From the IMG/VR virus record IMGVR_UViG_3300025137_000202, positions 1 through 28,015 of that record: 28,015 nt of DNA. One strand, written 5' to 3'. Below are positions 707 to 26,200 of this stretch, piece by piece. The position numbers were made by a program, and so were the translations under genes. The stretch comes from a virus. Below the pieces are notes generated by a model. That model searched no databases. It was not told where the DNA came from and worked only from the letters and a program-made list of their open reading frames with translations. Position 1 is the first letter of the stretch. The number at the start of each line of letters is the position of its first letter.

Positions 707-3700
707 TTAACTCTTTAGAAACACTGCTGCCGCAGTTGTCTGATCTTGTAAAGGTATTCCGTTACTGGCAGTACTAGAACCTTGTGCATACATTACGTTA
801 GCAGTTACCTGGCTAAACCAAACTTCAACTCCATTTAATGGTGCAGTTGTAAGAGTAACTTCAGTAAATGTACTATCAATACCTGTTACTGTATAATCAG
901 TTTCTGGAACAAGTATTGTGCCACCTACTGTTACAGTAATCGATTCGGTGTGTTCAGTGCTGTCAATACCAGTTGGTACTATAATACTTGTAGTAAATCT
1001 TGTTTCAGACCCGTTTCCTACGTTTGTTTTGTCAGTGGTTGTTTTCTCTTGGTATGTGCTTGGTAATTGCTCACCTGGTCCAACATCAGTAACACTTTCA
1101 CCTGCACTGTGAACATACACTCCTGTTCCTGCAGTACCACGTCTAATGTCACTTACTGTATTATTACCTGTATCTCTTACTCTGTATGTAATTCTTTCTG
1201 CGCCAACCATAAGTTGTCCAAAAATATTAGCTTCCAAGTTTGGCTCACTTAATTTTGATACATCTTTTAAGTAAATTACTGACGCCTCTACTGCAAGATC
1301 TTGTGCAAGTTCAGTTGTATTATTAGAGTTCATCCTTAATAGCTTTTGATTACCAAGCATATCCTGGAAGATTCTAAAGTTTAAACTATTAGGTACCACT
1401 GTGTTTGTAAACATAGTCACTGCTAAAACATCTGCGGCATTTATAACGTTTCTATTAAGTACCAGCGTAGTTTTGTTGTTGGCATCAGTTGATAGATCGT
1501 ATTCGGTTTGTTGAATGTAAATTCCGTTAAGTGTGACTATAAGTCTTTCTGGACTAGACACAAGTCTACCAAGTGCAAAGTTATTGGTGTCAACTGTGGT
1601 TCCTATGGTTTTATCAAATTCTGCACTATCATATGGCACTTCGTCATATGCGTCTCCAGTTGTAACACCAGTTGATGTTGGTCCAACAAAAACTTTTGTT
1701 AAAATATTTTGTTGTGCAGTATCATTATAGGTATACACTGCAAATTGTGCGTTTGATACTGCACTAACACGTAAGTCTATCTGATCACCAAGTATAATAT
1801 AATCTGATTCAGTTGTGGTAAAAATCTTAATGTCTGAGTTTGCAGGTGGCATACTGCCCACAGTAAATTCTATAAATCTATCACTCGATCCATCCCAAGC
1901 ACTTAAATTGAAATCAACTGCTAAATTCTGTTTTACGTTATCTACATATACCAGCATATCGTTGTCTGCTATTAGTGCTTGATTACTAATACCAGTAGTA
2001 CTAATATAATAAGGACCAGCACTAGAACCGTCGCCTGTGTACTCTATACCTTCTGGTGGACGTAGTCTCAATCCTTCACGTTGTACTGATAAGTTTGCTA
2101 TATTTGTTCCTTGCAAACTATTTGTCAAATTCTCTAACAGGCTTGATCCGTCATATGTCATATATTGTACTAACGGTGTACTCCACGAATACTGTGTTGG
2201 TGTAGTTGCTCCAAGTGGTACGATCGTTACCCAGTCAGTTGCACTGGGTTGAGTTGTAAATGAGATAGTGGTTGCAAAACTGCCGTCCGCAGCAAATGTA
2301 TAGCCTGTAGTGACTGCTCCATTTATGAATATAACCATTTCATTAATTTCTGTAAACGCTACAGGAATTGTTTGCACTTTATTTGTAATAGCAGACCCAA
2401 CAAAACTTTCTTTGTACAATTGCGAGCCGCCACCTAGTCCGTAAACTTTTACTGCAATTATGTTTCCAATCGAACTTGGCATGGTTGCCCCAAATGTTAC
2501 AATTTTGGTTACCCAATTAATTGAGTATGCAGTGTTTACTACACTTTGTCCAATTGTGTCATCAACAATTTCAATGCCAACTGGATGTAACATAGCGTTT
2601 GCAAAACTAATTTTTGTGCCAGTCCCAGCAAATGTTGTAGTAGTAGTAACTATATTAAAACCGTGTCCATCATTACTCCAGTCGCTTCCTGGACGAGTAA
2701 AAACTTTAAGGTCTAATGTGTCAAACTCACTACCAGGTATCAGCTCTTCTGGTGCATGTGAACTATAGGTGTCAATAAACTCACCACCATCAACATTTAT
2801 ATCTGTTGATCTAGTACCAAGATAGGTATCAACAAATGAACTCTGATATATTACATCTAATATGCCCGGGTCATAGGTTGGTAAACCTTCAGGACCAAAG
2901 TCAATGTTGTCATATGGATTAATATCAAAGTTACCTACATCATAGCCTGTATTTTGATTAAAATTTGGACCTTCGACTTGTACTCCAGGATAATCTATAC
3001 CTGTCATCACCTGTGCAAGTTCTCTGCCTGGTTCGTTTGGTTCCGGAGTGTACAAGCCTATTGTTCTGTCTGCACCATCAAGTGTGTTTTGATCAACTTT
3101 AGTATATTTTTCAGGATCAAATGAACTGCCGCTTGTAAAATTTGCAGTGACGCTATACACTTCGGGTAAACTTGCATTTATCACACCAACAGTTGGCACT
3201 GGAAAACGTACTAATTGTCCTGCGGTGTAAGCTGTATTTGCAGACCAGTCAACTACTTGGCTTGTATATGTAATTCTATCGTACGCTATTGTTGTTGTAA
3301 AATCACGTACTTGTTGTGGTTCTAGCACTGCAACCGCAGTAGCACCAGTTCCATTTCCACCTGATATCGTAACAGTTGGTGTTGTAGTGTAACCGGTACC
3401 AGCAGTAATTAAATTAACTCTTATCACTACTCCAGCAGTGTTAACCGTCGCAGTCATTGTTGCTTGTGTAATTGCATCGCCAGTGACAATCACCTGTGGA
3501 GCAACTGTGTAGCCTGTACCGCCATCTATGACAGTTATACTTTTTACTTCAAGTTTATAGTTGTTATACCATTGACTCCATGGAAATGTTTGCCAAACAA
3601 CACTTGTGCTTGGTACGGCACTCAATGATTTTGGATTAGTACTATCGTCCAGTATTGGAGATACAAACTGTTGTCTGAGACTATCATAGTAAGCTGGCAG

Positions 3701-6700
3701 ATCAAAATCAGTGATACTACCATTATATGTGTCTTCGCCTTCGTAGCGTAAGTTAAATTCTCTAACTTGAACATGATATGGTTTGACTTCTTGTATGTAT
3801 TGACTTACAAAGTCTTGATTATCACGTCTGTAAATAGGATATTCAATAAGATCTCGTATCTTATGATTTACGTCAATTAGACTTGTTTTGAATAACCAGT
3901 CTGGAGCAGGTTGCTCGCTCATAATAAATTCAAAAGTTAATATTAAAAGGTCGTTTCTAAATTTACGTAGATTTGTTGTAAATATCTCATCGTTAAGTGC
4001 TTGTAATATTTGTCTTGTTTCTATATTTGGTGCCTGGTCAAAACGTTGTGCATCAAACACTTCAACATCAAATCCATAATTTCCGTCAGTGTAATTCCAA
4101 ATAGTACTATCAATCGCAATTGTTCCATCTTCTAAGAAAACTCTTGTCCACTCGCTTGTAGTTGTGCTATACTGATATACTTCTTGTTTTCCAAAACTGT
4201 TTGCTTGAACTGTGGCCCATACTCCGTCTGACACATTCGTCAATGCTAATAAGTCACTATATAAACCTACATCATATGTGCTGGCATTTGCTGTACTATA
4301 AGTTGTAAAGTCTGCATTTATTCCGTTCCAGTCTATATAACTCCAATATAGTTTTGTATCATAGTTTTGTACTCTTGATAGCAGTAACTTTTGTTCAGCC
4401 TGCACGGTATAAATTGTCCATAGTCCTTCTTGTGTACTATCACTGGCAATAATATACTTGTAACCAACTGCTACTTGTCTCAAGTCTTGATATGTAAGTT
4501 CTGCATATGTTAGTAAGCGTTTGTCCCATTCTCCGCTGGCAGAAGTTGGCTCTGGCTCTTCACTGTTTAATAATTTAAAACTTTTGCTATCTGAAATCGG
4601 ATACAGTTTCATAATTGCATTTGCACGTTTCATGTAGTTTTCGAGGGCAAGGAAGCGATTTATAAAGAAACTTTGTCTTGGTCTAAAACTTACACCGTAT
4701 TTGTCTGCAACACTTAATGTTGGGTCTGGCACAAGGTTACCCAGTGTATCTTCGCCACAAAAACTGTCAAGAAATTTTCTATACAATCCTGCACCTAAGA
4801 AACTTTTTGCATCTCCAACAGTAATTAAGTCATATTCACTATGAACATTATCGTTATTTGCAATCTTGTCAAATTCTATATGTAAGATAGTATCAGTTGC
4901 TGAAAATAAATTTCTACAGTTGTATAAACTAATTGTACTTTGGCTTATGGCAGCACTGTATGCAACTCCACTTGAACGAGGATTCTCAATATACTGTGCA
5001 ATTCCGCTTGAACTGAGTGTTTTATTAGTACTAACTGCTGTCAACCCTTTTACCCAGAAGTAGTAATATGTAACAAAGGTTCCTGCACTATCAAGTTCAC
5101 TGCTTATAACATAACTGGTTGTGGTGTATACAGTTCCTTCTCCGATATAAGCATCAGGTGCAACTGTATTCTTTGTCCATTGATATACATCTACAGAAGA
5201 ACCAGGAAACAATTGTCCCCAACGTCTGGCTTTATATTCTATGGTGTCTTGATGGTAATCAATAAATCTTACCGTGCTTAAATCCCACCAAATCTTTCCA
5301 AGGTATTCATCTCTCCACTGTGAACCATAATTGTTTACAGTGCCTGTGTTGTAAGCCGCAGGATCGATACCGCCGGTATAGTCTATATTAGCCTGTGCTG
5401 CTCCTAGTATCTTGCCTTGTAATGGATCAATAAAGTCTAAATATGTAGTAATTTCGTTATTAACCTTATTATAGGTAAAAACACTATTCAGTAAAGATGC
5501 ATCAACAATTGGTTGCTGATTGTATAAGCGTTTCCAGGCTGACTCTTTGTTTGTGTTTACAAGTTGTACCACTCTTCCATAGTCACCTGTAGCAAGATTT
5601 AAATCATCATTTGGCGCACCAACTAACAACACACCGTCGTAATAGTCAACTGCACTACCAAACTTGTCAAAACTTGTAATACTTGTATCAAATATTTGTT
5701 GTCCAAATGCAAACTTGCCAGGATTGGTTGCACTCGCATTTGCACTTGGTAAGAAGTTATAGGTATACGCTACACCTGATTCATTAAGAGGATCAATTAT
5801 AGATGTGCTTTTTGAGTCAAAGAAGGTAGCACCAAGGTCAAATGTTGTTGGAAGATTAGCAGTTGCATCCGGAGAACCAACTACCAGAGTTGTCGCAGTA
5901 CTATCAATTTTCAAACTTTTACCAAAGTGTCCATAATCATTTGCAATTGGTGCAGTAATAGTTTGAGCATAAATTATTGGTGTCAGCCCAAGATCTGCAA
6001 ACGCAGTTCCGGCTCCTGGGGCAATCTGTAACTTTATAAAGTCTTCGGCAGCTTGTACATCTGTAAGCGTCACTTGTAAAGCACCGTTTACACTGGTTGC
6101 AGTAATATTTGGTATGTTTGCGGTAGTAATATCAGTTACTAAACTAGCAACGGTTGTACCAGTGAGAGTCACATAATAGTTGTTAATTCTAATTGAATTT
6201 GTTGCAGTCAATACTGGATTAGTCGCAGTACCTGTTATAGTTCCAAATAATCTTGCTTGGTTAATCCATCTGTCAACGCTACCGCCTTCTGGAACTAGCA
6301 AACTATCATTTGGTTCAGCAATATAAAGGCTACAGTTTGTAGAACACATATCAACAACACTTCCAAATTGATAATTTTGACCTAAAGTGGTTGCATTAAT
6401 TGTTTGGACTAGTCTAAATATATTTGTTTCAATTTCTACTATATCACCAATATTAAGTGTGAATGGATTTGTTGTAGTACCTATTGTTACAGTAGTTCCT
6501 GCTACACTAAACTGTGCGTTGTTAGCGTTAGCAGTCGGAATCAAATATGTGCCATTGACAGTAACAGTAACAGCTCCAACTGGTGTATCTGTGGTTGTAA
6601 AATTTTGTGTAGTTGTAGAAGCGACAGTAACTTGAAAACGTTGTACACTTCTGTCGTATATCGATACTTTACCAGCCTCGGTAGTTGTAACTGCGCCAAC

Positions 6701-9700
6701 GGTTACGTCAGTTTTAGGAGCACCAATTATTAAATGCCGTCCGTCGGTTGTGGTGCTTATACTTTCCCCTGCTAAGTCACCAGCACTAGCACCCGATACT
6801 GCAATGGTCGATACAAAATCCCAACTATCTTTTGAATCTATTAAAAGTGTTCCTGAGTTTATACCTGATATTAATGTTACAGTGCTACCAGCAAAGGTAT
6901 AATCAAATATTGGGCGTAACAATGCTCCATTATAGTTGACTGAAAAACTATATATGTCATTCACTGTAAATAATTTTGCAGTACTAAACGCAGTAGTTGA
7001 TACACTTGGCAGATATGTAATGCCTTGCAATCTTGTAATTCTTATTTTATCGTTATCATTAGGAGCAGTTGTAAACCTAACTATTTGTTTACTATTAGCG
7101 TCATCAACTACTGTAAAGGCAACACCAGCAGTTTGAGCTACATTGTTTCTTGTAACTCCAATTTGTGTTTGTGCAGTCCCATTGATTGCACTTACAACAA
7201 TGCTTCCTTCTATTAGAAAATCTGTGGTTGTTCCGTTTCCAGTATAATTTAGTGTTTGTCCTTGTACATCAACTTTGTTGTATGCATAAATTTTGTTATC
7301 TTCAGGAGCACTTATATATAGCCAACGCTCATCATCACTTAGTGCAACATCCTGGCCAAACTTATCTGCGTCGGCTGTCCCTGTGTTAAAAAGTTGCGTC
7401 TGCGTATATTCACCGTTTGAACTGTTACGTTTAATTGTAATAGCATACCCTTTATTACTATCACTTGCAGGTGCACCAGTTGCCACCCACTCGGTATTTC
7501 CAACACTTAAACTTGTACCGGTACCTACAAAACCTGTTGCAGTTGGTGTCATTATAGTTACTTCTTTGTACGTATTGGTATCTGATTTTCCATAACAGTA
7601 TACGGCACCTTTGCCACTTGCATAACCTGGAGCACCAATTGCTAGTCCTTGACCTATCAATCCTTGTGCTACTGTGGTTCCATAAAGATCGTTTAACACA
7701 GGTGTATCAGCGTCAATTTCTGTCGGAGTTCCAAAAGGATTAATTTTTTGTAGTACTGCCCAGTTTCCATCACCATAGTCATCTACCCATGCCTGATTTC
7801 CTGGAACAATATTATTTGCAAAACTTAAAGAGGCAACATCACTTGCTTGTTTTACACGCACACTTTCTAGTGTAAAACATCGTCCGTCACCGGTAAGTGT
7901 AACAGTTTCACCTGCAAGACTAAGAGGCACTGTCAGTGTTTTTAAACTAGGCACAGTACTTACTATGTAGGCTCCATCAACTCCTGTGCCAAAATATTTT
8001 ACAACAATTCTTGCACCTGCTAACAAGTTGTGATTGACATCAAAAGTTAAAGTACACGTGCCATTTAAATTGTCAGTAACTGAAACAATACTTGCGTTGA
8101 CTAAGTTTGTCCTATATATGTTCCAATCGTAACTGTTAGCTTTTGCAACCCATATATTTGTCCCAAGTGTGATTATATCTATGTTAGAAATGATATCAGT
8201 AAGGTCGTCATAGTCAAAAACCTTAATATCAACGTCATCAAAGTTTACATAACCGGCACTTGGCAGAGCTATATCTTCTGGAATCTTACCAACAGTTGGC
8301 AAAATATTTTTATTTGTTATCTTGTAACTTTGTTTCCAAATTCCGTCTATTAATACTGTTTGGTTTGCAGTAGACACTTCTTGATTATCAATTACTGCAA
8401 TAGTGCTAGGATTACTTAACAATTTGCTTTCATCCGTACGGAGCTCGAAGTAACTACGATTTGCGTTTGCTCCGTATATACCGCGTTGTATGGCCCAGTT
8501 CTCAAAAATCTCATATTCTGCTTCTTCTTTGCCGAGATTTGCACTTGTAAATGTTTCTGCAGCCTGTAAAGTGCCTTTTGTTCCGAGAAACTGTGAGTAC
8601 AAGCCAGCTTGAGAAATATCATCTAAGTTTAAATTTTGCATATACTGTCTTGGTCGAAAGCCGATTAATCCTAAACCTAATAGCGTTGCGTCACTTTCTA
8701 GGTTTGCAGTATGTATATCATAATTTTCGCGTAAGTTATCTGCTTTTGTGGCAAGGTTTGGTAGTAAGCCAGTTTGTATTTGTGCATAATCGCTTTTTAT
8801 CCAATCAGCAAAAACAAATGTTTCGCTTGGCGATAACAGAGTAGTTGCACTCCAATATGCATTTTTATATAGAACTATTTGACCCTTTGTATATGCGGCA
8901 TTTGGCTCCCATTCTTTAATATTATCTTGATTTAAGATAAAACCTTGAGCATCCAAAGTACCATTCCACTCGAACACTGTTTGACCATTTAGTAATAATC
9001 TATTCTGCCTAGCACCTGTTATTGGTTGATAAATCAAGTCATTAAAAATACTTACATTATCAAATACTAGTATATGTTCATATGAAGTAAATCTTGCTAA
9101 TAATAGACTAAACGTTTCGTTGTTTATTCCTATAAGTTTAAGTTCGTTTCCTAATCGTTCTACTGCATAATCTTTTGTTGTCATTGGTCCAAAATTTTGA
9201 CTGAGCATTACATCATTTATATTTTCACTTGCTAGGCTTTCAACTACGCTATTGGCCTTTTCTAATTTTAAGACATCGGCTGCAGGATTTAGATTAATAA
9301 TACTTCCTACTGTCCAGCTTTGTCCAGACCAGTACAAAAACTCTTGTGCCATTTGTGTCCAGTTTAAGATATACTCATTTTCCACACTGTCAAACGTTAG
9401 TCCTTTTTGTGTAAGCAATTGACCGTAACTTACTAAGAAATCAACCACACTAGTTGTACTTGTAAACACATATCCATACGGTACTTGAACAACATTATTG
9501 GTAAATGTTTCTGGTATACGTACTGCTTGTCCGTTCACTGTGATTGTACTAAACGTTCCTGCAGGAGTGCTTTGTAATATTTCAAAAAAGGGTTTAATAG
9601 TTGAATAGCCTGCAACTGAATATCCTCCGGCAACTCTTTGGACAGTCACAGAAGAATACTGCACTTCTGCAAAACTTGGATTTTTATAGAGAAACAGTTG

Positions 9701-12700
9701 ATAACTCTCATCTGGAAGTAGAAGACTACTATTCAAACTATTTGGTGATGACTTTTCAGAAAATATTTTTAAATAATTTTGATCACTAAAAGCAGCCATT
9801 CTGTAACAGAGCCTTACATCCATGTTAGACAATGAAGTTTTTAATAAAGTAGTGCTATCTAGTCCAGTGACTCTGTTGTAATCAACAATAAAATTTATAT
9901 AACTTTTTTTAATTGTTCCGTTTCCGTATACGCTTATAACGCTAGGATCAATACGAAATCTATTATCATACAAATACTGACTAAACTCGGTATTGTATTT
10001 GTATAGGTCTCGGTCGGCAAATAATGAAAAGTATTTTGCTGGTTTTGTTAGTGCTAATAATCTTTGAATTGCAAATGGATAATAACTGCTTCGACGCCAT
10101 GCATCTTCAGTTGGTGCCATATCACCTGGTACCCAAGATTTTACAAAACTATTTTTATCATAAGAACCAACAATAGTATCTATTGGTGCTAAAAGATTAC
10201 CTTGTGAGTCAGTTGGTATACAGTCCAAAAGTTGCGGACGTATATACTGATTTCTAACTACATTTCCTGTTGGATATGCAACAATTCCTTTTGCTAAGTC
10301 GTCCCATAATACAGTGTTTCCTGATGTATAAGGTGCTGGACCGTAAGTTGTCTGCCACCAAGTTGGTTCTTCGGTAAGCCCGACCATTTCCCATGGTCTT
10401 GTATGCGGAGAGTCTGTGTCATATAATTGAAAGTAAATTCCGCGCCATGCTCCTAGTAGAGGTTGATCACTTAATTTGTTGCCACTTTGGCTATAATTCC
10501 ATGTAAACGCATTATCTTCGATATAGGTTTGTTTCTTATACGGGACACGGTTGTCTCCTACCCATGCTAGAAAACTTAGGTTAAGTATATTGTTTGTTTC
10601 TGTTAATGTGTATTCTGTAGTTCTGAACTGTCCTGGGATCACATCCACTGCCTGGAGTGGAATATTGTATTTGTCATATGCACTACATTTTATATTGTTG
10701 TATATTCTTTTTTCAAACTCTAATAAAACTGCATTTCTATAATCGCCTGTTTCAAATGCTACAGTTAAACTACCATCATGTCCTTGTATAACATTTGTTG
10801 GTGTCACATACGTATTATCTAAAAACTCTTTAGGTCGATACACTCCGTACATACCCATCATACTTGGAGTTGCTGGGACATAACTTCCATAAGTCGTGGT
10901 GTATTCATTTATCGTAATTATGTCACCGTTTACCAGTGTAATTTTATCTGTATTAATTGTGATGCGAGGGCCATCTGTAGCTACTGTATACTCGTAACCA
11001 TCTCCAGTTAAGATAGTTTGGATACCGGTACTCTTTTGAGTAAGATAAACCAAAATGCCTTTATAGTTTGCAGTTGTTAAGTCATAGCTGAATAAAGTGT
11101 CAAACACATTAGTTGTAATTGGCGATACTGTATATGTAGTAGTCTGGAAAGTATTACCGTTTGGTATTGAATCAGTCCAATAAAACGGGCTCGATTCGCT
11201 CTTGCCTGCATTTATACCCAACAACGTACTATCTAATATTTGTGCAGTGGTTTTTCCCTCCCAGTCGTTGTTTGCAACATACTCTAAAATTTTGTTTTTT
11301 GTTTTTGCATATTCTGAACTGTTAAAATCATTGGCACGGAAAAATTCAAAGTCTCTGCCATTAATAAAGTTAGTCATTAATGTAACCGGAGAACTTTGTT
11401 GTAAAATAAGCGAACCAAAGGGTACAACGTTACCCAGGTCTCTTACATTATTGTTACCATGTATCTTTCCAGTAAAATTTTCTAAGTTTTCGCATATGCT
11501 TTCATAGTGTGTACGTATAGTGCCAAGTGTAAAACTTGTACTATTTTCATTCATAGCATTGGATTCAAGATTTGAAGGAATAGTATAAAACGCCACACTA
11601 CTGGCCGCATCACTTAGTACCTGTATTTCAACTATAGCACCGATATCTGGTTGTGTACTTGGTTGTCCCACAATATTTTGATTAAAAGTTACAACAGTAA
11701 CAGCATCAGTGTTTGTACTGTAGGTATAAGTGCTAGGAAGAACAAATTGTCCGTCAACATAAACCTTGACTGGAATTTTTGAAACATCACTCAGTACCTC
11801 AACGTCTAAGACTAATGAATTGCCAGCATAGGTGAAACTAAAACTTTGGCGTTGTGTGTATGTTTCAAAAGATGTTTGCCATCCTAGAAGTTTATTATAG
11901 GTTGTTATACTATTATACTGTCTTACTGACCCTGTGTCAACCTTTTTTGTTACACTTACTGTTCCGTTTACATATACAAAGGTATCTGTATATAAATTAT
12001 TATCAAATACAATATCACCTACATTTGCAATTGTTAGGTATTTCAACGGCTGGTCAATTACTGTGTCAGTTGCACCAGTACCAACGGCATAACTGAAAAG
12101 TTTTGATCCAGCAAAGGTTGTACTGGGATAAACTGTGATATCACTGAAACTATAGCCACTGCTATCAAATATATCAAATAGTGGTGCTTGATTCACACCA
12201 GTTTTTTGTTGAGCCGACTGCCAAGTTGTTCCATTGTACCAATATGCTTTTCCTTGTAGAGTCGTTCCTGAGGTTACTACAACATTAGTGTTTGTAGGAG
12301 TATCAGGTGTAGTTAAACTTGCTGGTTGCAAGTCTATTACATCAACACTACTATCGCCAAAGTCTACAAAACTTACTGTATAAATTTTATTACGTACTTC
12401 TGCATCGATATCAGCCGCAAATATAATTCTCGATCCTGCTACTAGTGTGTAACCATCAACACTATATCCTATAGTACCATTGATATTCGAAAATGCATCG
12501 GTCTCTGTAAAATCAATTATATCTACTGGTTGCGTTGCTACTGTTCCATAGTTGAAAAGTTTCAGACTTTTTCTATATTCTAATATTGGGCGTTTAGCAC
12601 GATTATCATTGTTTATTTCTAAGGGCACTTTATTATAAATTGCAGTTGCTTCAAGTACACCTATGTGAAACCATCTGTTACCTCTACTCCATGCATTTTG

Positions 12701-14296
12701 ATCTAAACTTGCTCTGTTTATAGTCATATAGTCTTGAGCCGTCGGAGCATTATTTGTGGCATCAAAATTACCTTCATCAAATGCGGTACTATCAAACGGC
12801 ACAGTTGTCGATACAGTAAACGTCTCTGGCGTAATAAAATTTGTAACTGGCAATAGTTCTATTGCAGTGCCTACTCCTTCTATATAATATTCTAAATTTT
12901 CGTAACTTGCAGGAACCACTGCACCAATAAATTGTACTTTAAGTCCGTTTGTAAACACAACGCCGTTTGGTGATGTATAAGTTGGTTTGCCAACTATATC
13001 TTCAATGCGTAAATCAGAAGCATTTGCTTGGTCAACAAGACGTATTACACCAAAGTTTGTTGAATCACTTTGATCCTGATAGTAAACTATATCAAGATTA
13101 GCAGTGATTAGCGGCTGACGCTCAAACAATCCTGTAGCATTTTTATAAAAAGTAACACCAGCATAGTCAGTACCGTATTCTATAAGGGTTTTACTTTGAT
13201 TGGCAATATTTTTTACTTTTGTAAGTTCGATAAAAGGACGAAGTGGATTTGTATAATTGTAATTTATTCTCCACTGTACATAACGCTCTGAATCTGTTGC
13301 CAACGGTACACTATTATCAAATCCTGCATTTGGGATACCAGGATTATCTTGATCAAACAAAGTTTCATCAAAAGGAGTGAGTGTTTCCCAACCAGTATCG
13401 GTGTCAGTGGTAATAATAAGTGTTCTGTTTTGTAGATCTGTTATGCCGTCAATGCCACCATGTGCGGCTAAAAATACATCCACAAACTGATTATTAATTT
13501 GATTAAACTGTAATTTGTCTTCTAGTAGATCTGTACTTCCAATATCTGTTAATGTAAAATAATAATTTTGTGCAGTTTTATCTGGCACTGTAAATTTAAC
13601 TGTACCTACATCGTCGCCATTGTTGCTTACACCTAGTACTTCACGAGAACTTTGGTTTGGTTGTTGTGGTAATGTACCTGATACACCAGGCGTACTTTGA
13701 ATCCAGAAGTTACGTCCATTTGCATTGACATCAAAAGTATATTCACCTTGTCGGACAAAAGTAAGTGTTGGCAATGCACCTGCTACACCAGAAAACGTAT
13801 AACCACTAGGACTATAAGCAACATCAAATGTGTCTCGTATCGCTATAGTGTTTGCAAAAACGTCAACACTATTTGGGCCTTCTGGCACCCAATAATATTG
13901 ACTAAAATTAATATATTTGTCGTAATCCACAAAAGGATCAAAACTATAATATTCGCTATTAAATAGCCTGTCATCTCTGGTTACATTTGCACCTTGTAAC
14001 TCTAAACTATCAATTATTCCAGGGTATGTAATTGCATCTGCAACTTTATTTGTATTTGGTGTAAGTTGAACAACTCCAGGTTCAAGTTGATAGTCAGTTC
14101 TTGTAGCAGTTGGTTCAAGAACATAGCTATCAGATGCAGTGACACCAGGACCAATTTTACGTCCTATATAACCTTCTGTTGGTTTTAATTTTGGATTTTG
14201 TGTTAACTGATCAAGTGTACTACGCAACAACTGCTTGTTTGCAGGTGTTTGAAATATTTCGGGTAGGAAGTCTTCAGAGCGTATACGCTTAGCCAT
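707..14296 (-). CDS. Giant modular baseplate/tail structural protein (4529 aa)
   Basis: A single open frame of 13,590 bases with no stop, starting one base after the gp6 stop; GGAG (14306-14309) lies 9 bases upstream of the ATG. Visible parts: an aromatic-rich N-terminal third (residues 1 to ~1790); a CBM5/12-like segment beginning at W1796; seven FG-GAP-like blades between about 2205 and 2910 with 50-195 residue spacing; a conserved-looking region ~3000-3520 (contains YIQEVKPYHVQVREFNLRYEG); two GxGYTxxPxV repeats at ~3585-3660; a second CBM5/12-like segment from W3684; and tandem Ig-like modules up to the C-terminus, including an RRGTAGT motif. No signal peptide or membrane helix is seen. 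T4 has gp7 and gp8 after gp6, so this may be a replacement or expansion of the wedge/rim proteins, or carry host-contact surfaces. Function is inferred from context only. Confidence 0.93.
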   Translation of the reverse strand: MAKRIRSEDFLPEIFQTPANKQLLRSTLDQLTQNPKLKPTEGYIGRKIGPGVTASDSYVLEPTATRTDYQLEPGVVQLTPNTNKVADAITYPGIIDSLELQGANVTRDDRLFNSEYYSFDPFVDYDKYINFSQYYWVPEGPNSVDVFANTIAIRDTFDVAYSPSGYTFSGVAGALPTLTFVRQGEYTFDVNANGRNFWIQSTPGVSGTLPQQPNQSSREVLGVSNNGDDVGTVKFTVPDKTAQNYYFTLTDIGSTDLLEDKLQFNQINNQFVDVFLAAHGGIDGITDLQNRTLIITTDTDTGWETLTPFDETLFDQDNPGIPNAGFDNSVPLATDSERYVQWRINYNYTNPLRPFIELTKVKNIANQSKTLIEYGTDYAGVTFYKNATGLFERQPLITANLDIVYYQDQSDSTNFGVIRLVDQANASDLRIEDIVGKPTYTSPNGVVFTNGLKVQFIGAVVPASYENLEYYIEGVGTAIELLPVTNFITPETFTVSTTVPFDSTAFDEGNFDATNNAPTAQDYMTINRASLDQNAWSRGNRWFHIGVLEATAIYNKVPLEINNDNRAKRPILEYRKSLKLFNYGTVATQPVDIIDFTETDAFSNINGTIGYSVDGYTLVAGSRIIFAADIDAEVRNKIYTVSFVDFGDSSVDVIDLQPASLTTPDTPTNTNVVVTSGTTLQGKAYWYNGTTWQSAQQKTGVNQAPLFDIFDSSGYSFSDITVYPSTTFAGSKLFSYAVGTGATDTVIDQPLKYLTIANVGDIVFDNNLYTDTFVYVNGTVSVTKKVDTGSVRQYNSITTYNKLLGWQTSFETYTQRQSFSFTYAGNSLVLDVEVLSDVSKIPVKVYVDGQFVLPSTYTYSTNTDAVTVVTFNQNIVGQPSTQPDIGAIVEIQVLSDAASSVAFYTIPSNLESNAMNENSTSFTLGTIRTHYESICENLENFTGKIHGNNNVRDLGNVVPFGSLILQQSSPVTLMTNFINGRDFEFFRANDFNSSEYAKTKNKILEYVANNDWEGKTTAQILDSTLLGINAGKSESSPFYWTDSIPNGNTFQTTTYTVSPITTNVFDTLFSYDLTTANYKGILVYLTQKSTGIQTILTGDGYEYTVATDGPRITINTDKITLVNGDIITINEYTTTYGSYVPATPSMMGMYGVYRPKEFLDNTYVTPTNVIQGHDGSLTVAFETGDYRNAVLLEFEKRIYNNIKCSAYDKYNIPLQAVDVIPGQFRTTEYTLTETNNILNLSFLAWVGDNRVPYKKQTYIEDNAFTWNYSQSGNKLSDQPLLGAWRGIYFQLYDTDSPHTRPWEMVGLTEEPTWWQTTYGPAPYTSGNTVLWDDLAKGIVAYPTGNVVRNQYIRPQLLDCIPTDSQGNLLAPIDTIVGSYDKNSFVKSWVPGDMAPTEDAWRRSSYYPFAIQRLLALTKPAKYFSLFADRDLYKYNTEFSQYLYDNRFRIDPSVISVYGNGTIKKSYINFIVDYNRVTGLDSTTLLKTSLSNMDVRLCYRMAAFSDQNYLKIFSEKSSPNSLNSSLLLPDESYQLFLYKNPSFAEVQYSSVTVQRVAGGYSVAGYSTIKPFFEILQSTPAGTFSTITVNGQAVRIPETFTNNVVQVPYGYVFTSTTSVVDFLVSYGQLLTQKGLTFDSVENEYILNWTQMAQEFLYWSGQSWTVGSIINLNPAADVLKLEKANSVVESLASENINDVMLSQNFGPMTTKDYAVERLGNELKLIGINNETFSLLLARFTSYEHILVFDNVSIFNDLIYQPITGARQNRLLLNGQTVFEWNGTLDAQGFILNQDNIKEWEPNAAYTKGQIVLYKNAYWSATTLLSPSETFVFADWIKSDYAQIQTGLLPNLATKADNLRENYDIHTANLESDATLLGLGLIGFRPRQYMQNLNLDDISQAGLYSQFLGTKGTLQAAETFTSANLGKEEAEYEIFENWAIQRGIYGANANRSYFELRTDESKLLSNPSTIAVIDNQEVSTANQTVLIDGIWKQSYKITNKNILPTVGKIPEDIALPSAGYVNFDDVDIKVFDYDDLTDIISNIDIITLGTNIWVAKANSYDWNIYRTNLVNASIVSVTDNLNGTCTLTFDVNHNLLAGARIVVKYFGTGVDGAYIVSTVPSLKTLTVPLSLAGETVTLTGDGRCFTLESVRVKQASDVASLSFANNIVPGNQAWVDDYGDGNWAVLQKINPFGTPTEIDADTPVLNDLYGTTVAQGLIGQGLAIGAPGYASGKGAVYCYGKSDTNTYKEVTIMTPTATGFVGTGTSLSVGNTEWVATGAPASDSNKGYAITIKRNSSNGEYTQTQLFNTGTADADKFGQDVALSDDERWLYISAPEDNKIYAYNKVDVQGQTLNYTGNGTTTDFLIEGSIVVSAINGTAQTQIGVTRNNVAQTAGVAFTVVDDANSKQIVRFTTAPNDNDKIRITRLQGITYLPSVSTTAFSTAKLFTVNDIYSFSVNYNGALLRPIFDYTFAGSTVTLISGINSGTLLIDSKDSWDFVSTIAVSGASAGDLAGESISTTTDGRHLIIGAPKTDVTVGAVTTTEAGKVSIYDRSVQRFQVTVASTTTQNFTTTDTPVGAVTVTVNGTYLIPTANANNAQFSVAGTTVTIGTTTNPFTLNIGDIVEIETNIFRLVQTINATTLGQNYQFGSVVDMCSTNCSLYIAEPNDSLLVPEGGSVDRWINQARLFGTITGTATNPVLTATNSIRINNYYVTLTGTTVASLVTDITTANIPNITATSVNGALQVTLTDVQAAEDFIKLQIAPGAGTAFADLGLTPIIYAQTITAPIANDYGHFGKSLKIDSTATTLVVGSPDATANLPTTFDLGATFFDSKSTSIIDPLNESGVAYTYNFLPSANASATNPGKFAFGQQIFDTSITSFDKFGSAVDYYDGVLLVGAPNDDLNLATGDYGRVVQLVNTNKESAWKRLYNQQPIVDASLLNSVFTYNKVNNEITTYLDFIDPLQGKILGAAQANIDYTGGIDPAAYNTGTVNNYGSQWRDEYLGKIWWDLSTVRFIDYHQDTIEYKARRWGQLFPGSSVDVYQWTKNTVAPDAYIGEGTVYTTTSYVISSELDSAGTFVTYYYFWVKGLTAVSTNKTLSSSGIAQYIENPRSSGVAYSAAISQSTISLYNCRNLFSATDTILHIEFDKIANNDNVHSEYDLITVGDAKSFLGAGLYRKFLDSFCGEDTLGNLVPDPTLSVADKYGVSFRPRQSFFINRFLALENYMKRANAIMKLYPISDSKSFKLLNSEEPEPTSASGEWDKRLLTYAELTYQDLRQVAVGYKYIIASDSTQEGLWTIYTVQAEQKLLLSRVQNYDTKLYWSYIDWNGINADFTTYSTANASTYDVGLYSDLLALTNVSDGVWATVQANSFGKQEVYQYSTTTSEWTRVFLEDGTIAIDSTIWNYTDGNYGFDVEVFDAQRFDQAPNIETRQILQALNDEIFTTNLRKFRNDLLILTFEFIMSEQPAPDWLFKTSLIDVNHKIRDLIEYPIYRRDNQDFVSQYIQEVKPYHVQVREFNLRYEGEDTYNGSITDFDLPAYYDSLRQQFVSPILDDSTNPKSLSAVPSTSVVWQTFPWSQWYNNYKLEVKSITVIDGGTGYTVAPQVIVTGDAITQATMTATVNTAGVVIRVNLITAGTGYTTTPTVTISGGNGTGATAVAVLEPQQVRDFTTTIAYDRITYTSQVVDWSANTAYTAGQLVRFPVPTVGVINASLPEVYSVTANFTSGSSFDPEKYTKVDQNTLDGADRTIGLYTPEPNEPGRELAQVMTGIDYPGVQVEGPNFNQNTGYDVGNFDINPYDNIDFGPEGLPTYDPGILDVIYQSSFVDTYLGTRSTDINVDGGEFIDTYSSHAPEELIPGSEFDTLDLKVFTRPGSDWSNDGHGFNIVTTTTTFAGTGTKISFANAMLHPVGIEIVDDTIGQSVVNTAYSINWVTKIVTFGATMPSSIGNIIAVKVYGLGGGSQLYKESFVGSAITNKVQTIPVAFTEINEMVIFINGAVTTGYTFAADGSFATTISFTTQPSATDWVTIVPLGATTPTQYSWSTPLVQYMTYDGSSLLENLTNSLQGTNIANLSVQREGLRLRPPEGIEYTGDGSSAGPYYISTTGISNQALIADNDMLVYVDNVKQNLAVDFNLSAWDGSSDRFIEFTVGSMPPANSDIKIFTTTESDYIILGDQIDLRVSAVSNAQFAVYTYNDTAQQNILTKVFVGPTSTGVTTGDAYDEVPYDSAEFDKTIGTTVDTNNFALGRLVSSPERLIVTLNGIYIQQTEYDLSTDANNKTTLVLNRNVINAADVLAVTMFTNTVVPNSLNFRIFQDMLGNQKLLRMNSNNTTELAQDLAVEASVIYLKDVSKLSEPNLEANIFGQLMVGAERITYRVRDTGNNTVSDIRRGTAGTGVYVHSAGESVTDVGPGEQLPSTYQEKTTTDKTNVGNGSETRFTTSIIVPTGIDSTEHTESITVTVGGTILVPETDYTVTGIDSTFTEVTLTTAPLNGVEVWFSQVTANVMYAQGSSTASNGIPLQDQTTAAAVFLKS
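3100..3250 (-). other. Second CBM5/12-like (chitin-binding type) segment of the giant protein
   Basis: From W3684 the protein reads WSANTAYTAGQLV, followed after an insertion by VYSVTANFTSG and, later, KYTKVD. The pattern W-x5-Y-x2-G-x2-V ... Y-x-V-x-A-x-F is that of short carbohydrate-binding modules of the CBM5/12 type found in chitinases and in many phage tail proteins. The assignment rests on pattern only. Confidence 0.4.
5569..7684 (-). other. Predicted seven-bladed FG-GAP (integrin-alpha-like) beta-propeller in the giant protein
   Basis: Seven blade-like motifs occur in order: IGAPG (G2221), TGAPASD (G2274), FGQD...ISAPED (F2313), IIGAPK (G2525), FGSVVD...IAEPND (F2644), FGKSLK...VGSPDA (F2791), FGSAVD...VGAPND (F2879). 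Each resembles the FG...(V/I)GAP(x)D core of FG-GAP repeats. The gaps between blades 3-4, 4-5 and 5-6 are enlarged and hold Ig-like strand-rich inserts with the pattern VTVNG...I.F...P....I.I. Seven is the expected blade number for integrin-alpha heads. The fold is inferred from motif spacing. Confidence 0.65.
8780..8915 (-). other. First CBM5/12-like segment of the giant protein
   Basis: From W1796 the protein reads WEPNAAYTKGQIVLYKNAYW, followed by SATTLLSPSETF and a closing FADWIKSD. This fits the short carbohydrate-binding pattern W-x5-Y-x2-G-x2-V-x-Y-x3-Y-W-x-A with a final tryptophan. Such modules often bind chitin-like or other surface glycans. Here it could bind host glycan or simply be a small structural domain. 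Confidence 0.45.
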
Positions 14297-14297
14297 A

Positions 14298-17200
14298 CTA
14301 GACTACTCCACTATTAGTTGCAGTTCTTAGTTGACTGCTAGTAAGTGCATCAATTACTTCAATATCATTTACTGTGGCCGCATTTACAAATATCTCATTA
14401 GCTTGAGATCGGATTTCATACAGGTCTCCAAATGATTTTAATGGATCAGTCGGCACAAGAACCACAGTACTAATAATGCTTCCTAATTGATCATGTAGAT
14501 AAGCACTTAATTCTGAGAAGAAGAAGGTATCGCCAAAGTCCCAATTTTCTATTGTAAAGTATGTGTTCATACTTGCTACAACTTGACTTTTTATTTCGCT
14601 TATACTTGCAGTACTAGCAGGATTTTTAACGCACTTGATTGTTGCACGTAATTCAACTGCAGACTTAGTGCCAAATAAAGGCTTAAATGTTACACTGTTT
14701 AATATTATATTATCTGAAATCATTTTATACTGATCAAGTGTACTATAACTAGTGGTGAGTTCATCTATAGTCGGCTTTGCTGGTTCAGGTACAGAGCCTG
14801 TACTATCTCTTACATAATTTTGATATGCAATATAATACGATTGAGTTACAAGATAAATGTCAATAATATTTGTAGTACCTGGGTCAATACGTCGGCTTAA
14901 CGGAGCATTGTGTCTATATTGAAAGTACAACCCTTGTCGGCCAACAAATGTTTGATAACCAGTAACGACTGCAATAGTTCGTACACCATCATAGGCGACA
15001 GATAATTTATAAAACTTTTTATCTGTATAAGCATAAAAAACTTGTGCATCGGGATATTCGCTCTTTACTAATTCAATAGCGGCACTTGTTGCTAAACTAC
15101 CAATTATCACACCTGATGCTAATGGCAAATATCTTTCTAAGTTATCAAAATCAATTGTTTGTTGTAAAAATATTCTTTTGTTGTTTGGGTTTACTGTTGG
15201 TGCAACAAGTGTTTCAAAATAATCAGGATTATCTGGGACGCCGTCGTTATCAGAGTCTTTATAAGATATACGTACTCTAAAATCATCAATGAAGCCATCT
15301 GTCTCTACAGGCTGGTCAATTATGTCTAATATCTCATCACTGTTAAGTGTTGAACTTGAATCTGGTAAGTTGTTTGTTTTTAAAACATTTATAAAGTCGT
15401 TTATAACTGTTCCTGTTTTTGGATCATAAACTTTTTGTGTGCCGTCATAAAAGAAACGTGTCTCAAGTACACTAGCCCAAAACCGTTGTAAACTACGCGA
15501 GCTCACAGTATAAGTGACTCCGTCTGTTTCAAATGCAATTAACCAGCTATTATCTAATCCAGCACCTGTAGTGTTTTGTGCATTTGCAAGACTAAATGTA
15601 ATTGCTGAATTTAAGTTTGTACTTGTAATAACGTACCAAGTGCCTGTTAGATTATTATAACCTAATCCAAAGTTTCTATACAGTTCAATGTTCTCACGCA
15701 TAGTTGTTTCTATGCTTGTTGGTAAGTCTGTGACAAAGTTTGGAATAACTTCAGTTGGCACTGCATTTGTAGGAATAAAATTATTTAAAGTTACTGGGCC
15801 TGTTCCATCTGTATTGTTTCCTGTGCCAAAATTTGTGCCATCAAGTTCGAGTGCAGTCACAGTTGCCCACAATATCATTTTATCTCCAGGTAATGTAGGC
15901 GAACCAACGGCTAGTCTGTTAGTTGCGGTAAAATATTGTCCTGCTGGGGGTATGAATTTTACTAGTCCGCCTTTAGCAATATACTGTTTATTATCACTTG
16001 CTTGTGGTCCAACTGGTGCCGGAGCATTACTAGCCACAAATCTAAAGAATCCTGTAGTTTCGTTATTGCTAGTTGTACTTTGACTCCAATTTAGATTTAG
16101 GCTTGTAAGACTTGGACGCAAAAAGTTTTGGTAATAAAACTCTTGCATACCTCGGCCCGCTAGTACTGGTTCAACTTGATTTTGTATAACATCATTTATA
16201 TCATTCTGATCAATAAAAGTAAAGGTAAAACTAGGTACTTCTGTGTTTTCATAAACCATTCCGTCTGATGCAAACACGTTTGTACTTGAGTATTTTCCAG
16301 TGATGTCAACAAGATCCAAATATCTACTAGTGCCAATTGAGCTACGATTAACTGCCTTGGACTTGATTATAGTTGAATAAAGTGTATATGGAAAATTATT
16401 GTAGTCTTCACCATTAACCATGCGATTTTGCGTATAGTATCTTGCTGGTGCACGTTGTTTAATATCGTTTATATTTTCTCTGTTCGCGGCATTACTAACT
16501 GGTGATGTTAAAGCACAGGTCAGTGATAAAGTTTCATTGCGTCCGGTTCGACTAACATATCCAATACTGATCGAAACATTTTGCATCTCGTCTGGATTAA
16601 TAATATAACTCAAACCATTTGAAGAACGAACATAAGTTCTAAAACTGCCAACTGGAATACTACTGAAAACACCATCACCAAAGTTTAAATTAATTTGATC
16701 ATTGGTTCTTGAACTTATATTAAAATATCGGCGTTGTTCTGGCGTAAGTTCCTCAACTGCACCACTGTAGATGTTTTCTACTTTGGTCCATTCATTCTGG
16801 ATGTTGCCAGTTGCATCTAGTTGATATAACCAAGTATCTTCATTGTTTATACCTTCAATGTTTACGTTTACAACCCTGTTAGAAATACGTTCGCCAAGAT
16901 TAAAATCAAGATCCTGTAAACTGCCTTGTTTGAATAAAAAGAAGAAGCCGGTATTCGCACTTGCATATCCTTGTTTGTCATTACGATATAATACATTAAA
17001 TGCTCCATTAGGCGCAGGCGCTGGCTCGTAAAGATATGTTTTATCTTGCGATGTAGCACATACTGCTTCAAATGCCATTGCAGTTCCATTAATGGTATTT
17101 GTAAATGGTACAATCGGAAGGAAACCTTGTATAAGGTTAATTGCATACTCGTCTGTTTGGACTCCAAGCAATGTTTGTGTATTTCCAGGTCGACCAAATC

Positions 17201-17705
17201 TTTGACTGTTTGTTAACGCACTATTTACAATTACTGTAAATTGCTCTAGCCAATTTGCATTAGTGGTGTCATTCCAGTTCACTGTAATATTTGAAAGATT
17301 TACACCAGTAAAATCTGTCACACCTTCTGTAGTACTAATACTTTGTACTTTTAAAAATCCTTGTGCTGCAGTGTTACGCTTTGGTGTGTAACTTACTAGT
17401 TCTGCTAGCCTGTTGACACTGTCTCTTCTTTCAGCAGTGTCAATAAAATTTTCTCTTGTGTTTAGATCATTTCTAAAACTACCTGCTTGACCCATAAATG
17501 CCATTACATCAAGAAGTGCAATAAATTCACTTGACTCAATATAGTCGTTAAAACTTTCTGGATAATATAGACGTATGTAATCTATAAAACTTTTACGAAG
17601 TGTTTCAAAATCATAACTTTGAAAATCTGCTTCACGATATGTTTGGTAGATTCTCTTCCAATCTTCAACACCAAATATACTTGTTTGTCTTGTAGTTTTA
17701 GCCAT
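14298..17705 (-). CDS. gp6: Baseplate wedge protein gp6 (J-like), enlarged
   Basis: The N-terminus (DWKRIYQTYREADFQSYDFE; then IALLDVMAFMGQAGSFRNDL, residues ~14-83) and the segment NRMVNGEDYNNFPYTLYSTI (~427-446) are typical of T4-like gp6, the wedge protein whose dimers form the inner ring of the baseplate. The C-terminal part (~995-1110) is the conserved domain SVTFKPLFGTKSAVELRATI...WDFGDTFFFSEL. At 1135 residues it is much longer than T4 gp6 (660), the extra length lying roughly between 500 and 990. Residues 817-828 form a DxDxDGxxDxxD calcium-loop motif. The ATG is supported by GGTAAGGAAA (17711-17720) and a late promoter directly upstream. It follows gp25 by 51 bases and abuts the giant gene. 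Identification is firm; the role of the insert is unknown. Confidence 0.96.
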   Translation of the reverse strand: MAKTTRQTSIFGVEDWKRIYQTYREADFQSYDFETLRKSFIDYIRLYYPESFNDYIESSEFIALLDVMAFMGQAGSFRNDLNTRENFIDTAERRDSVNRLAELVSYTPKRNTAAQGFLKVQSISTTEGVTDFTGVNLSNITVNWNDTTNANWLEQFTVIVNSALTNSQRFGRPGNTQTLLGVQTDEYAINLIQGFLPIVPFTNTINGTAMAFEAVCATSQDKTYLYEPAPAPNGAFNVLYRNDKQGYASANTGFFFLFKQGSLQDLDFNLGERISNRVVNVNIEGINNEDTWLYQLDATGNIQNEWTKVENIYSGAVEELTPEQRRYFNISSRTNDQINLNFGDGVFSSIPVGSFRTYVRSSNGLSYIINPDEMQNVSISIGYVSRTGRNETLSLTCALTSPVSNAANRENINDIKQRAPARYYTQNRMVNGEDYNNFPYTLYSTIIKSKAVNRSSIGTSRYLDLVDITGKYSSTNVFASDGMVYENTEVPSFTFTFIDQNDINDVIQNQVEPVLAGRGMQEFYYQNFLRPSLTSLNLNWSQSTTSNNETTGFFRFVASNAPAPVGPQASDNKQYIAKGGLVKFIPPAGQYFTATNRLAVGSPTLPGDKMILWATVTALELDGTNFGTGNNTDGTGPVTLNNFIPTNAVPTEVIPNFVTDLPTSIETTMRENIELYRNFGLGYNNLTGTWYVITSTNLNSAITFSLANAQNTTGAGLDNSWLIAFETDGVTYTVSSRSLQRFWASVLETRFFYDGTQKVYDPKTGTVINDFINVLKTNNLPDSSSTLNSDEILDIIDQPVETDGFIDDFRVRISYKDSDNDGVPDNPDYFETLVAPTVNPNNKRIFLQQTIDFDNLERYLPLASGVIIGSLATSAAIELVKSEYPDAQVFYAYTDKKFYKLSVAYDGVRTIAVVTGYQTFVGRQGLYFQYRHNAPLSRRIDPGTTNIIDIYLVTQSYYIAYQNYVRDSTGSVPEPAKPTIDELTTSYSTLDQYKMISDNIILNSVTFKPLFGTKSAVELRATIKCVKNPASTASISEIKSQVVASMNTYFTIENWDFGDTFFFSELSAYLHDQLGSIISTVVLVPTDPLKSFGDLYEIRSQANEIFVNAATVNDIEVIDALTSSQLRTATNSGVV

Positions 17706-17756: not shown

Positions 17757-18137
17757 CTACACGTCTGAGTAAGCGGCTCTTTGTTGTTGTTGATCAAAAA
17801 ACACTTGTAATAGTTCAGCATCTTGCCCAGCAACTGTTTGTACTTCAAGTTCAATTAGGATGCCATTTTCTTGTGCAAATACATTTATGTCACTGATAGA
17901 GATTCGCGGATCCTGAGCACATACCCTTTGTATCTCTGTATTGATAGCTCTTGTGGTTTCAGCACTTTGTGGTTCGTAGATTAATGCCCACATACTTGTA
18001 CCAACATTAGGACGCCCTGGCATTTCTCCTTGGCGTATGTTTAAGGCATTAAGTAAATCACGCTTAATTAGATCAAAGTCTGTAACAGTAAAACTTTTGT
18101 ACTTGTTTATTGTACTATATCCGATAAATGTTGCCAT
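17757..18137 (-). CDS. gp25: Baseplate wedge protein gp25 (GPW/gp25 family)
   Basis: A 126-residue protein, close in length to T4 gp25 (132). It shows the family signature: N-terminal Tyr/Lys-rich strand (KYKSFTVTDFDLIKRDLLNA), then IRQGEMPGRPNVGTSMWALI containing the conserved G...W core, and the C-terminal ISISDINVFAQENGILIELE strands. gp25 is a small wedge component that helps hold sheath and gp6 together in contractile tails and is found in nearly all such systems. It lies between the spike and gp6 genes, the classic order. No clear Shine-Dalgarno sequence precedes the ATG; instead a late promoter element sits 4 bases upstream, suggesting leaderless translation or coupling to gp5. Confidence 0.96.
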   Translation of the reverse strand: MATFIGYSTINKYKSFTVTDFDLIKRDLLNALNIRQGEMPGRPNVGTSMWALIYEPQSAETTRAINTEIQRVCAQDPRISISDINVFAQENGILIELEVQTVAGQDAELLQVFFDQQQQRAAYSDV

Positions 18138-18140
18138 ACT

Positions 18141-18149
18141 GTATTTATG
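18141..18149 (-). promoter_or_regulatory. Late promoter overlapping the gp5 stop codon, upstream of gp25
   Basis: Minus-strand CATAAATAC, in which the TAA is the stop codon of the gp5-like gene. Only CAGT-like bases separate it from the gp25 ATG, so the expected transcription start falls at or within one base of the start codon. The motif is identical to those at 12-20 and 17723-17731. Confidence 0.6.
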
Positions 18150-23573: not shown

Positions 23574-23873
23574 TTAGAATCCTAGTACTGATTTTAATGT
23601 AGATATCTGTGGTAGATAGATTGTTGTTCCAGTTGTAAAGTCAAACAACGGGTCTTGTAACTGATTTGGATTACGTTGAGCAAACACCCACCAAAGACTT
23701 GCATCTTCGTATAAGTCAAATGCAAGTAAATCAGGACGTAAGTTATAAGTTTCATTTATAGTCATTGATAAATCATCAATCAGTTTGGGAATAGGCCTAT
23801 CAACCATAATACCCAGATATTGATTACTGATAACCGGAGTATCGAAGTATGAACTAGTGGACGTATAAGACAT
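23574..23873 (-). CDS. gp53: Baseplate wedge protein gp53, short form
   Basis: A 99-residue protein with the gp53 core: YLGIMVDRPIPKLIDDLSMT, YNLRPDLLAFDLYEDASLWW and VFAQRNPNQLQDP, ending in a TGTTIYLP strand like the LysM-type fold of this family. T4 gp53 is about twice as long (196). It helps lock neighbouring wedges together. I chose the ATG at 23873, which overlaps the upstream TAA as TAATG and has AAAGGA eight bases upstream, over a GTG two codons earlier (23879) which would sit only two bases from the same ribosome binding site. Overlap with the gp48-like gene implies translational coupling. Confidence 0.92.
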   Translation of the reverse strand: MSYTSTSSYFDTPVISNQYLGIMVDRPIPKLIDDLSMTINETYNLRPDLLAFDLYEDASLWWVFAQRNPNQLQDPLFDFTTGTTIYLPQISTLKSVLGF

Positions 23874-26149: not shown

Positions 26150-26154
26150 GTATA

Positions 26155-26161
26155 CTCCTCT
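26155..26161 (-). promoter_or_regulatory. Ribosome binding site that fixes the gp48-like start
   Basis: Minus-strand AGAGGAG, five bases before ATG 26149. It is the strongest Shine-Dalgarno sequence in the leftward block, and the reason for rejecting the in-frame start at 26182. Confidence 0.85.
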
Positions 26162-26165
26162 AGTC

Positions 26166-26174
26166 TTATTTATG
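26166..26174 (-). promoter_or_regulatory. Late promoter for the baseplate gene block
   Basis: Minus-strand CATAAATAA. The predicted start of transcription, six bases on (about 26161), coincides with the first base of the ribosome binding site, giving a 12-base leader. It is the first late element of the leftward block in this window. Confidence 0.65.
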
Positions 26175-26200
26175 GTAACCAAAAAGTGCGTAGTTAATGA

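Follow-up and report, generated by a model that had tools for sequence, protein, structure and literature searches.

TssG, gpI and gp7 have been proposed to be related proteins that form a 2:1 heterotrimer with a gp6-type partner (PMC6300606). In T4, gp7 (1032 aa) is encoded directly after gp6 and ahead of further baseplate genes, and the counterpart order in P2 is gpW-gpJ-gpI. P2 gpI/R-pyocin Tri2 (Tail_P2_I), TssG and Mu gp48 all stand after the gp6 counterpart, the P2 and Mu proteins being chains of 176–180 aa in one piece. Far larger is the "baseplate wedge initiator" gp7 of the Kyanoviridae phage SynMITS9220M01 (13443–25646, 4067 aa, PHROG 2885), which follows gp25 and gp6 and is itself followed by a separate gp8 gene. 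Its clear gp7 motif, the STKG/STRG that it has in common with T4 gp7 (HHalign, 97%), lies near the N-terminus, within residues 1–220, and is followed by beta-modules that extend over thousands of residues.

The DNA analysed here (the window, 28,015 nucleotides) is an entire 28-kb IMG/VR record. Its minus strand encodes, in this order, the PHROG 12050 and PHROG 11190 proteins, gp53, gp5, a gp25-like wedge protein of 126 aa (17757–18137; PF04965, 33.4 bits, above cut-off), the 1135-aa baseplate wedge protein gp6 (14298–17705; PHROG 10646 at 3.5e-276, PHROG 219 at 1.6e-25), a giant baseplate protein (707–14296) and, directly after it, a 219-aa protein with a profile match to PHROG 11259 (16–675); gp55 and gp47 are divergent, on the plus strand. 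This layout recurs in jumbo phages, PA5oct and 121Q among them. The gp6 ORF ends at 14298 and the ATG of the giant gene lies one base further on, opening a single ORF of 4529 codons with zero internal stops that occupies 48.5% of the window and encodes a protein of a predicted 497.5 kDa and pI 4.4; an uninterrupted frame of this length right behind gp6, filling almost half of the window, is what a preliminary description of this DNA had reported. Two other proteins of the minus strand have features of their own. The PHROG 12050 virion protein (23873–26182) contains eleven VDDF motifs at about aa 235–420, spaced 11–56 residues apart in a low-complexity linker, part of which corresponds to a 36-bp DNA tandem repeat (25385–25480). 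In the gp5-like hub protein (18145–20379, 744 aa) no lysozyme domain was found in a Pfam search, whereas Vibrio phage 2.275.O has, in the corresponding region, a protein annotated as glycoside hydrolase family 24.

The giant protein matches PHROG 10938 at 2.8e-301, in four stretches along the chain, and by its sequence it is a further member of this previously recognised family, which is annotated as "virion structural protein" without a specific function. A tblastn search with the N-terminal third of the protein matched at least 86 of 50,697 phage records, the matches listed being jumbo phages (121Q, PBECO4, phAPEC6, PA5oct, Atu_ph07, Phosso, SCTP-2 and others), the C-terminal half added GAP32, RaK2 and K64-1, and a profile search of IMG/VR returned at least 594 matching contig stretches from hundreds of uncultivated contigs. 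Given its length and these homologues, the ORF is not a chance frame; nor is it the special case that the preliminary description implied, since the family is widespread and had been annotated before. New in the present analysis are a functional assignment, a map of the conserved blocks and an insertion hot spot. Relatives are usually single chains of 3300–5050 residues, and 63 of the 69 complete frames recovered from IMG/VR were full-length (3830–5045 aa), so that a single chain of 4529 residues is normal for the family. The six short frames come from three contigs (L126, L128 and L130) that are broken near the same places; gene fission was considered for them and rejected in favour of assembly faults, as sequence seems to be missing at the split points. 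The giants of 121Q, PBECO4, phAPEC6, RaK2, GAP32, PA5oct, Atu_ph07, Phosso and SCTP-2 share with the window protein the family, the core blocks in order and the place after gp6, and core identity between the window protein and isolates of PHROG 10938 is about 22–35%.

Gene order around the giant is nearly invariant. In 178 of 179 IMG/VR loci the giant gene is immediately preceded by gp6, in 145 of 146 gp25 lies upstream of gp6, and in all 27 with enough sequence the PHROG 11259 gene lies downstream. The order gp25-gp6-gp7 expected around a gp7-type wedge protein is the order found for the giant, which stands where the cyanophage has gp7 behind gp25 and gp6 and where P2 has gpI behind gpW and gpJ, in agreement with the earlier placing of this protein at the position of gp7. 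In relatives, the product of this gene is a virion protein. In phAPEC6, gp245 (381.9 kDa) was detected in virions by mass spectrometry with 17 unique peptides, and the adjoining wedge protein gp244 with 21 (PMC7247149); gp245 is the homologue of the giant and, as checked by its position in the record, comes after the gp244 wedge gene. The record of the PA5oct homologue, gp355, is annotated ESI-MS/MS, and in a Ralstonia phage a 2541-aa protein behind a gp6-like wedge gene is annotated as structural and is among the virion gel bands (PMC8504454). Virion presence, which had been named as a check, was thus found for the homologues in PA5oct and phAPEC6. Together, the gene order, the virion data from relatives and the lack of another candidate give good support to the assignment of the giant to the place of gp7, and genuine homology with gp7 is likely.

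Alignments of the full-length relatives resolved eight blocks (B1–B8) that are conserved and occur in the same order in all those compared. B1 (aa 1–150, 13847–14296) is separated by an insert recognised from the block spacing (insert 1, aa 151–525, 12722–13846) from B2 (aa 526–760), B3 (900–1050), B4 (1120–1520) and B5 (1560–1790), which together span 8927–12721; B6 comprises aa 1860–2100 (7997–8719), and B7 (2940–3220) and B8 (3430–3545) together span 3662–5479. The spacing of the blocks differs between lineages. Between B1 and B2 there are 9–14 aa in 121Q/RaK2/GAP32-like proteins versus 335–695 aa in other IMG/VR relatives, and between B5 and B6 there are 20 aa in the 121Q type versus about 70 aa, the extra part being a CBM5/12-like module (aa 1794–1836, 8789–8917; Pfam PF02839 at 22.4 bits, below the cut-off of 26.2). 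The gap between B6 and B7 measures 94–152 aa in 121Q/RaK2/GAP32-like phages and the IMG/VR relatives L104 and L113, versus 714–1123 aa in other IMG/VR relatives, all of which, where tested, have an FG-GAP propeller above the Pfam cut-off; in Atu_ph07 and Phosso it is filled by modules unrelated to these, over about 1400 aa. In the window protein this site is filled by an FG-GAP beta-propeller (about aa 2200–2925, 5522–7699), delimited by motif positions and by FG-GAP_2 (PF14312) at 45.5 bits against a cut-off of 23, with about seven FG-GAP-like repeats recognised by eye and by pattern. An alignment of seven sequences had suggested that Atu_ph07 and Phosso have this propeller in common, which direct BLAST ruled out. 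The window protein thus differs from 121Q-type members, which lack insert 1, the CBM5/12-like module and the propeller, and from the giants of Atu_ph07 and Phosso, whose inserts are different ones.

Behind B8 lies a GTGYT..PTVTI-type repeat module (aa 3581–3685, 3242–3556; phrog_460 at 5.9e-11, hhalign to cyanophage gp7 60%) that is also present in cyanophage gp7 and gp8. The "head closure" function attached to phrog_460 was not transferred to the giant, as the match consists of the repeat module only. A further C-terminal module (aa 4323–4395, 1112–1330) resembles a module of cyanophage gp7, weakly in the window protein and at E 0.002–0.003 in relatives, and the final 1000 residues of the giant vary among relatives. 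Aromatic residues follow the conserved regions: W, F and Y together make up 12.6% of aa 1–1790 and 15.0% of aa 2940–3545 versus 9.0–9.3% of the remaining parts. The aromatic richness noted earlier for the first third and for residues ~3000–3520 is therefore real, both regions correspond to the conserved core, and the description of a specific conserved part combined with mosaic modules agrees with core blocks that alternate with exchangeable inserts. The anatomy also bears on whether the giant might be a tail fibre or adhesin, with the propeller, the CBM-like module and small beta-modules as its functional part. A propeller above the Pfam cut-off, the CBM5/12-like module and C-terminal modules common to other phage structural proteins would fit such a protein, but the propeller site measures only 94–152 aa or holds other modules in the relatives named above, while all eight blocks of the core persist in the same order. 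The conserved function must accordingly sit in the core, and we regard a fibre or adhesin as highly improbable.

Profile searches did not identify the giant as gp7 directly. It has no profile match to T4 gp7 (PHROG 964; Pfam gp7 domains), and in 12 related genomes (six large uncultivated ones and six isolates) the profiles of gp7 (phrog_964), gp8 (PF09215) and P2 gpI (PF09684) gave nothing above chance, although T4 and the cyanophage, used as positive controls, matched the profiles appropriate to them. Clear homologues of gp7 and gp8 elsewhere in the genome, which the preliminary description had said would overturn its reading, were thus sought in these 12 genomes and not found. Sequence searches of the PDB with the giant and with profiles of both its halves returned matches at chance level only, a weak match to All3316 being discarded as the CBM-like module, and a scan of viral contigs for relatives of P2 gpI found near-identical copies only. 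HHalign comparison of the core blocks with T4 gp6, gp7, gp8, gp9, gp10 and gp11 and with cyanophage gp7 and gp8 detected only the shared repeat module. It is conceivable, though unlikely, that the giant is a scaffold or rim protein of the baseplate, specific to this lineage and merely lying beside gp6, and that a small gene elsewhere in the genome encodes the true, strongly diverged gp7, as there is no significant gp7 homology in the giant and many virion proteins of such phages have no assigned function (PMC6102473). The near-invariant gene order over 179 loci, the same as in T4, the cyanophage and P2, speaks against that arrangement.

The same searches bear on a fusion of gp7 with gp8, gp10 or both, the fused wedge and rim chain that had been suggested for this protein. 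The size of the giant would permit a fusion, and the gp8 profiles had no full-length match in the 12 genomes; phrog_438 (gp8-like) matches in relatives cover only the repeat part of the profile. However, neither gp8, whether of T4 or of the cyanophage, nor T4 gp10 aligns with any segment of the giant, which is connected to the gp8 family solely through a short repeat also present in gp7. PA5oct encodes a separate protein with the gp10 C-terminal domain, the cyanophage keeps gp8 separate beside a gp7 of similarly giant size, and simple contractile phages generally function without gp8. A fusion is on these grounds very unlikely, and this part of the earlier interpretation is not upheld.

A more specific comparison was possible through short motifs. 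In P2 gpI, HKGT follows a helix and AKPASRH lies close to the C-terminus. The giant family has the motif FYxGFIxxKGT, whose KG is invariant in all 48 aligned proteins, and, 1600 residues after KGT, a second motif YIxEVKPYH, the same order as that of KGT (P2) and KP (P2 and Mu) in the short proteins. The region around KGT (aa 1832–1951, 8444–8803, with KGT at 1907–1909) and that around KPYH (aa 3473–3540, 3677–3880, with KPYH at 3505–3508) are here proposed to be the first and second halves of a gp7/gpI-type core. With profiles to which divergent members had been added, hhalign aligned the KGT region in register with P2 gpI (P = 0.006) and with cyanophage gp7 (P = 0.0035, a suggestive homology), and the KPYH region with the C-terminus of P2 gpI (P = 0.002–0.005, the value 0.002 being obtained with the 121Q anchor). 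When the two segments, picked after the motifs had been seen, were joined, the score was 31.6 (P = 0.0003) with the 121Q anchor, where the highest of 200 column-shuffled controls reached 20.5, and 21–22 (P 0.012–0.017) with the window or the SCTP-2 anchor. In an unselected segment-by-segment scan of the conserved blocks against a nine-sequence gpI profile, the top three segments, all in the right register, were 1900–2019 and 1860–1979, which cover KGT, and 3470–3545, which covers KPYH. The best location of a gpI HMM was the KPYH region in six divergent relatives and neither motif in the window protein.

The individual motif matches have HHalign probabilities of 4–40%, none of them significant by usual standards, and T4 gp7 gives no convincing match to the giant, any sequence similarity between the two being below detection. 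By the same method gpI is barely detectable from gp7; since these proposed relatives escape each other in this way, the non-significance against gpI is not evidence against homology, and the HHalign motif comparison is weak in both directions. The occurrence of KGT and KPYH in the order and register of gpI suggests that the giant holds a discontinuous core homologous to gpI and gp7, a gp7 core split by inserts, and it counts, as does the absence of any other ORF resembling gpI or gp7 in the window, against a true gp7 encoded elsewhere. Unlike the short proteins, in which this core is one piece, the giant would have it divided by about 1550 residues within 4529 aa. It would also differ from the cyanophage gp7, which resembles it in position, in size and in some beta-modules, but bears its gp7 motif near the N-terminus; SynMITS9220M01 gp7 is a separate case of gp7 enlargement.

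A gp7-type wedge protein would have a helical stem and an alpha/beta domain at its C-terminus. AlphaFold2 was applied to the 121Q homologue, the one whose core has the shortest inserts, in two halves (1–1195 and 1270–2468) that nearly cover the core. Mean pLDDT was 68 for the first half, in which about 670–1100, belonging to the counterpart of B2–B5, was predicted confidently, and 63 for the second half. Neither the moderate model of the first half nor the low-confidence model of the second had a PDB match at E ≤ 0.001, a search that a split domain could escape, and structure therefore lends no support to the gp7 reading; the N-terminal half, where it is well predicted, resembles no known fold over much of its length, a point in favour of a lineage-specific protein beside gp6. 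In a search of BFVD most matches were to members of the family and to other structural proteins of phages, and for the first half mainly to family members. In the model of the second half, helices precede KG and a helix and strands follow it, which is the order expected for gpI, at low local confidence.

Taking these results together, we consider the giant to be probably the wedge subunit at the gp7 position of a jumbo T4-related phage, hugely enlarged and with its gp7-type core split between KGT and KPYH. By analogy with T4 gp7, P2 gpI and TssG, the giant and two copies of the adjoining gp6 would together form the wedge heterotrimer, at which gp25 and gp53 would bind. The two halves of the core would lie around KGT (aa ~1840–1960) and KPYH (aa ~3490–3530); the roughly 1550 residues that separate them, including the FG-GAP propeller, would be looped out, and the core would be preceded by about 1850 residues and followed by about 1000. 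The additional conserved blocks would be a scaffold particular to the family that makes the baseplate thicker and wider, and the inserted modules (the propeller, the CBM5/12-like module and the small beta-modules) would face outwards, in a position to carry fibres or contact the host; a role in host recognition is a guess prompted by the propeller and the CBM-like module. A bolder version, which we consider unlikely, is a single giant scaffold in which the gp7 fold is split by more than 1500 residues, one chain does the work of T4 gp7, gp8 and peripheral proteins, and an integrin-like propeller at the insertion hot spot couples surface contact directly to the gp6-gp7 trigger.

In many jumbo phages, among them some that infect E. 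coli, Klebsiella and Pseudomonas, the giant ranks with the largest proteins, and its annotation has so far been only "virion structural protein" or "hypothetical". Its assignment to the place of gp7 yields a testable model for the construction of large baseplates from the gp6-gp7 wedge that contractile tails have, and it names the insertion site at which lineages swap surface modules.
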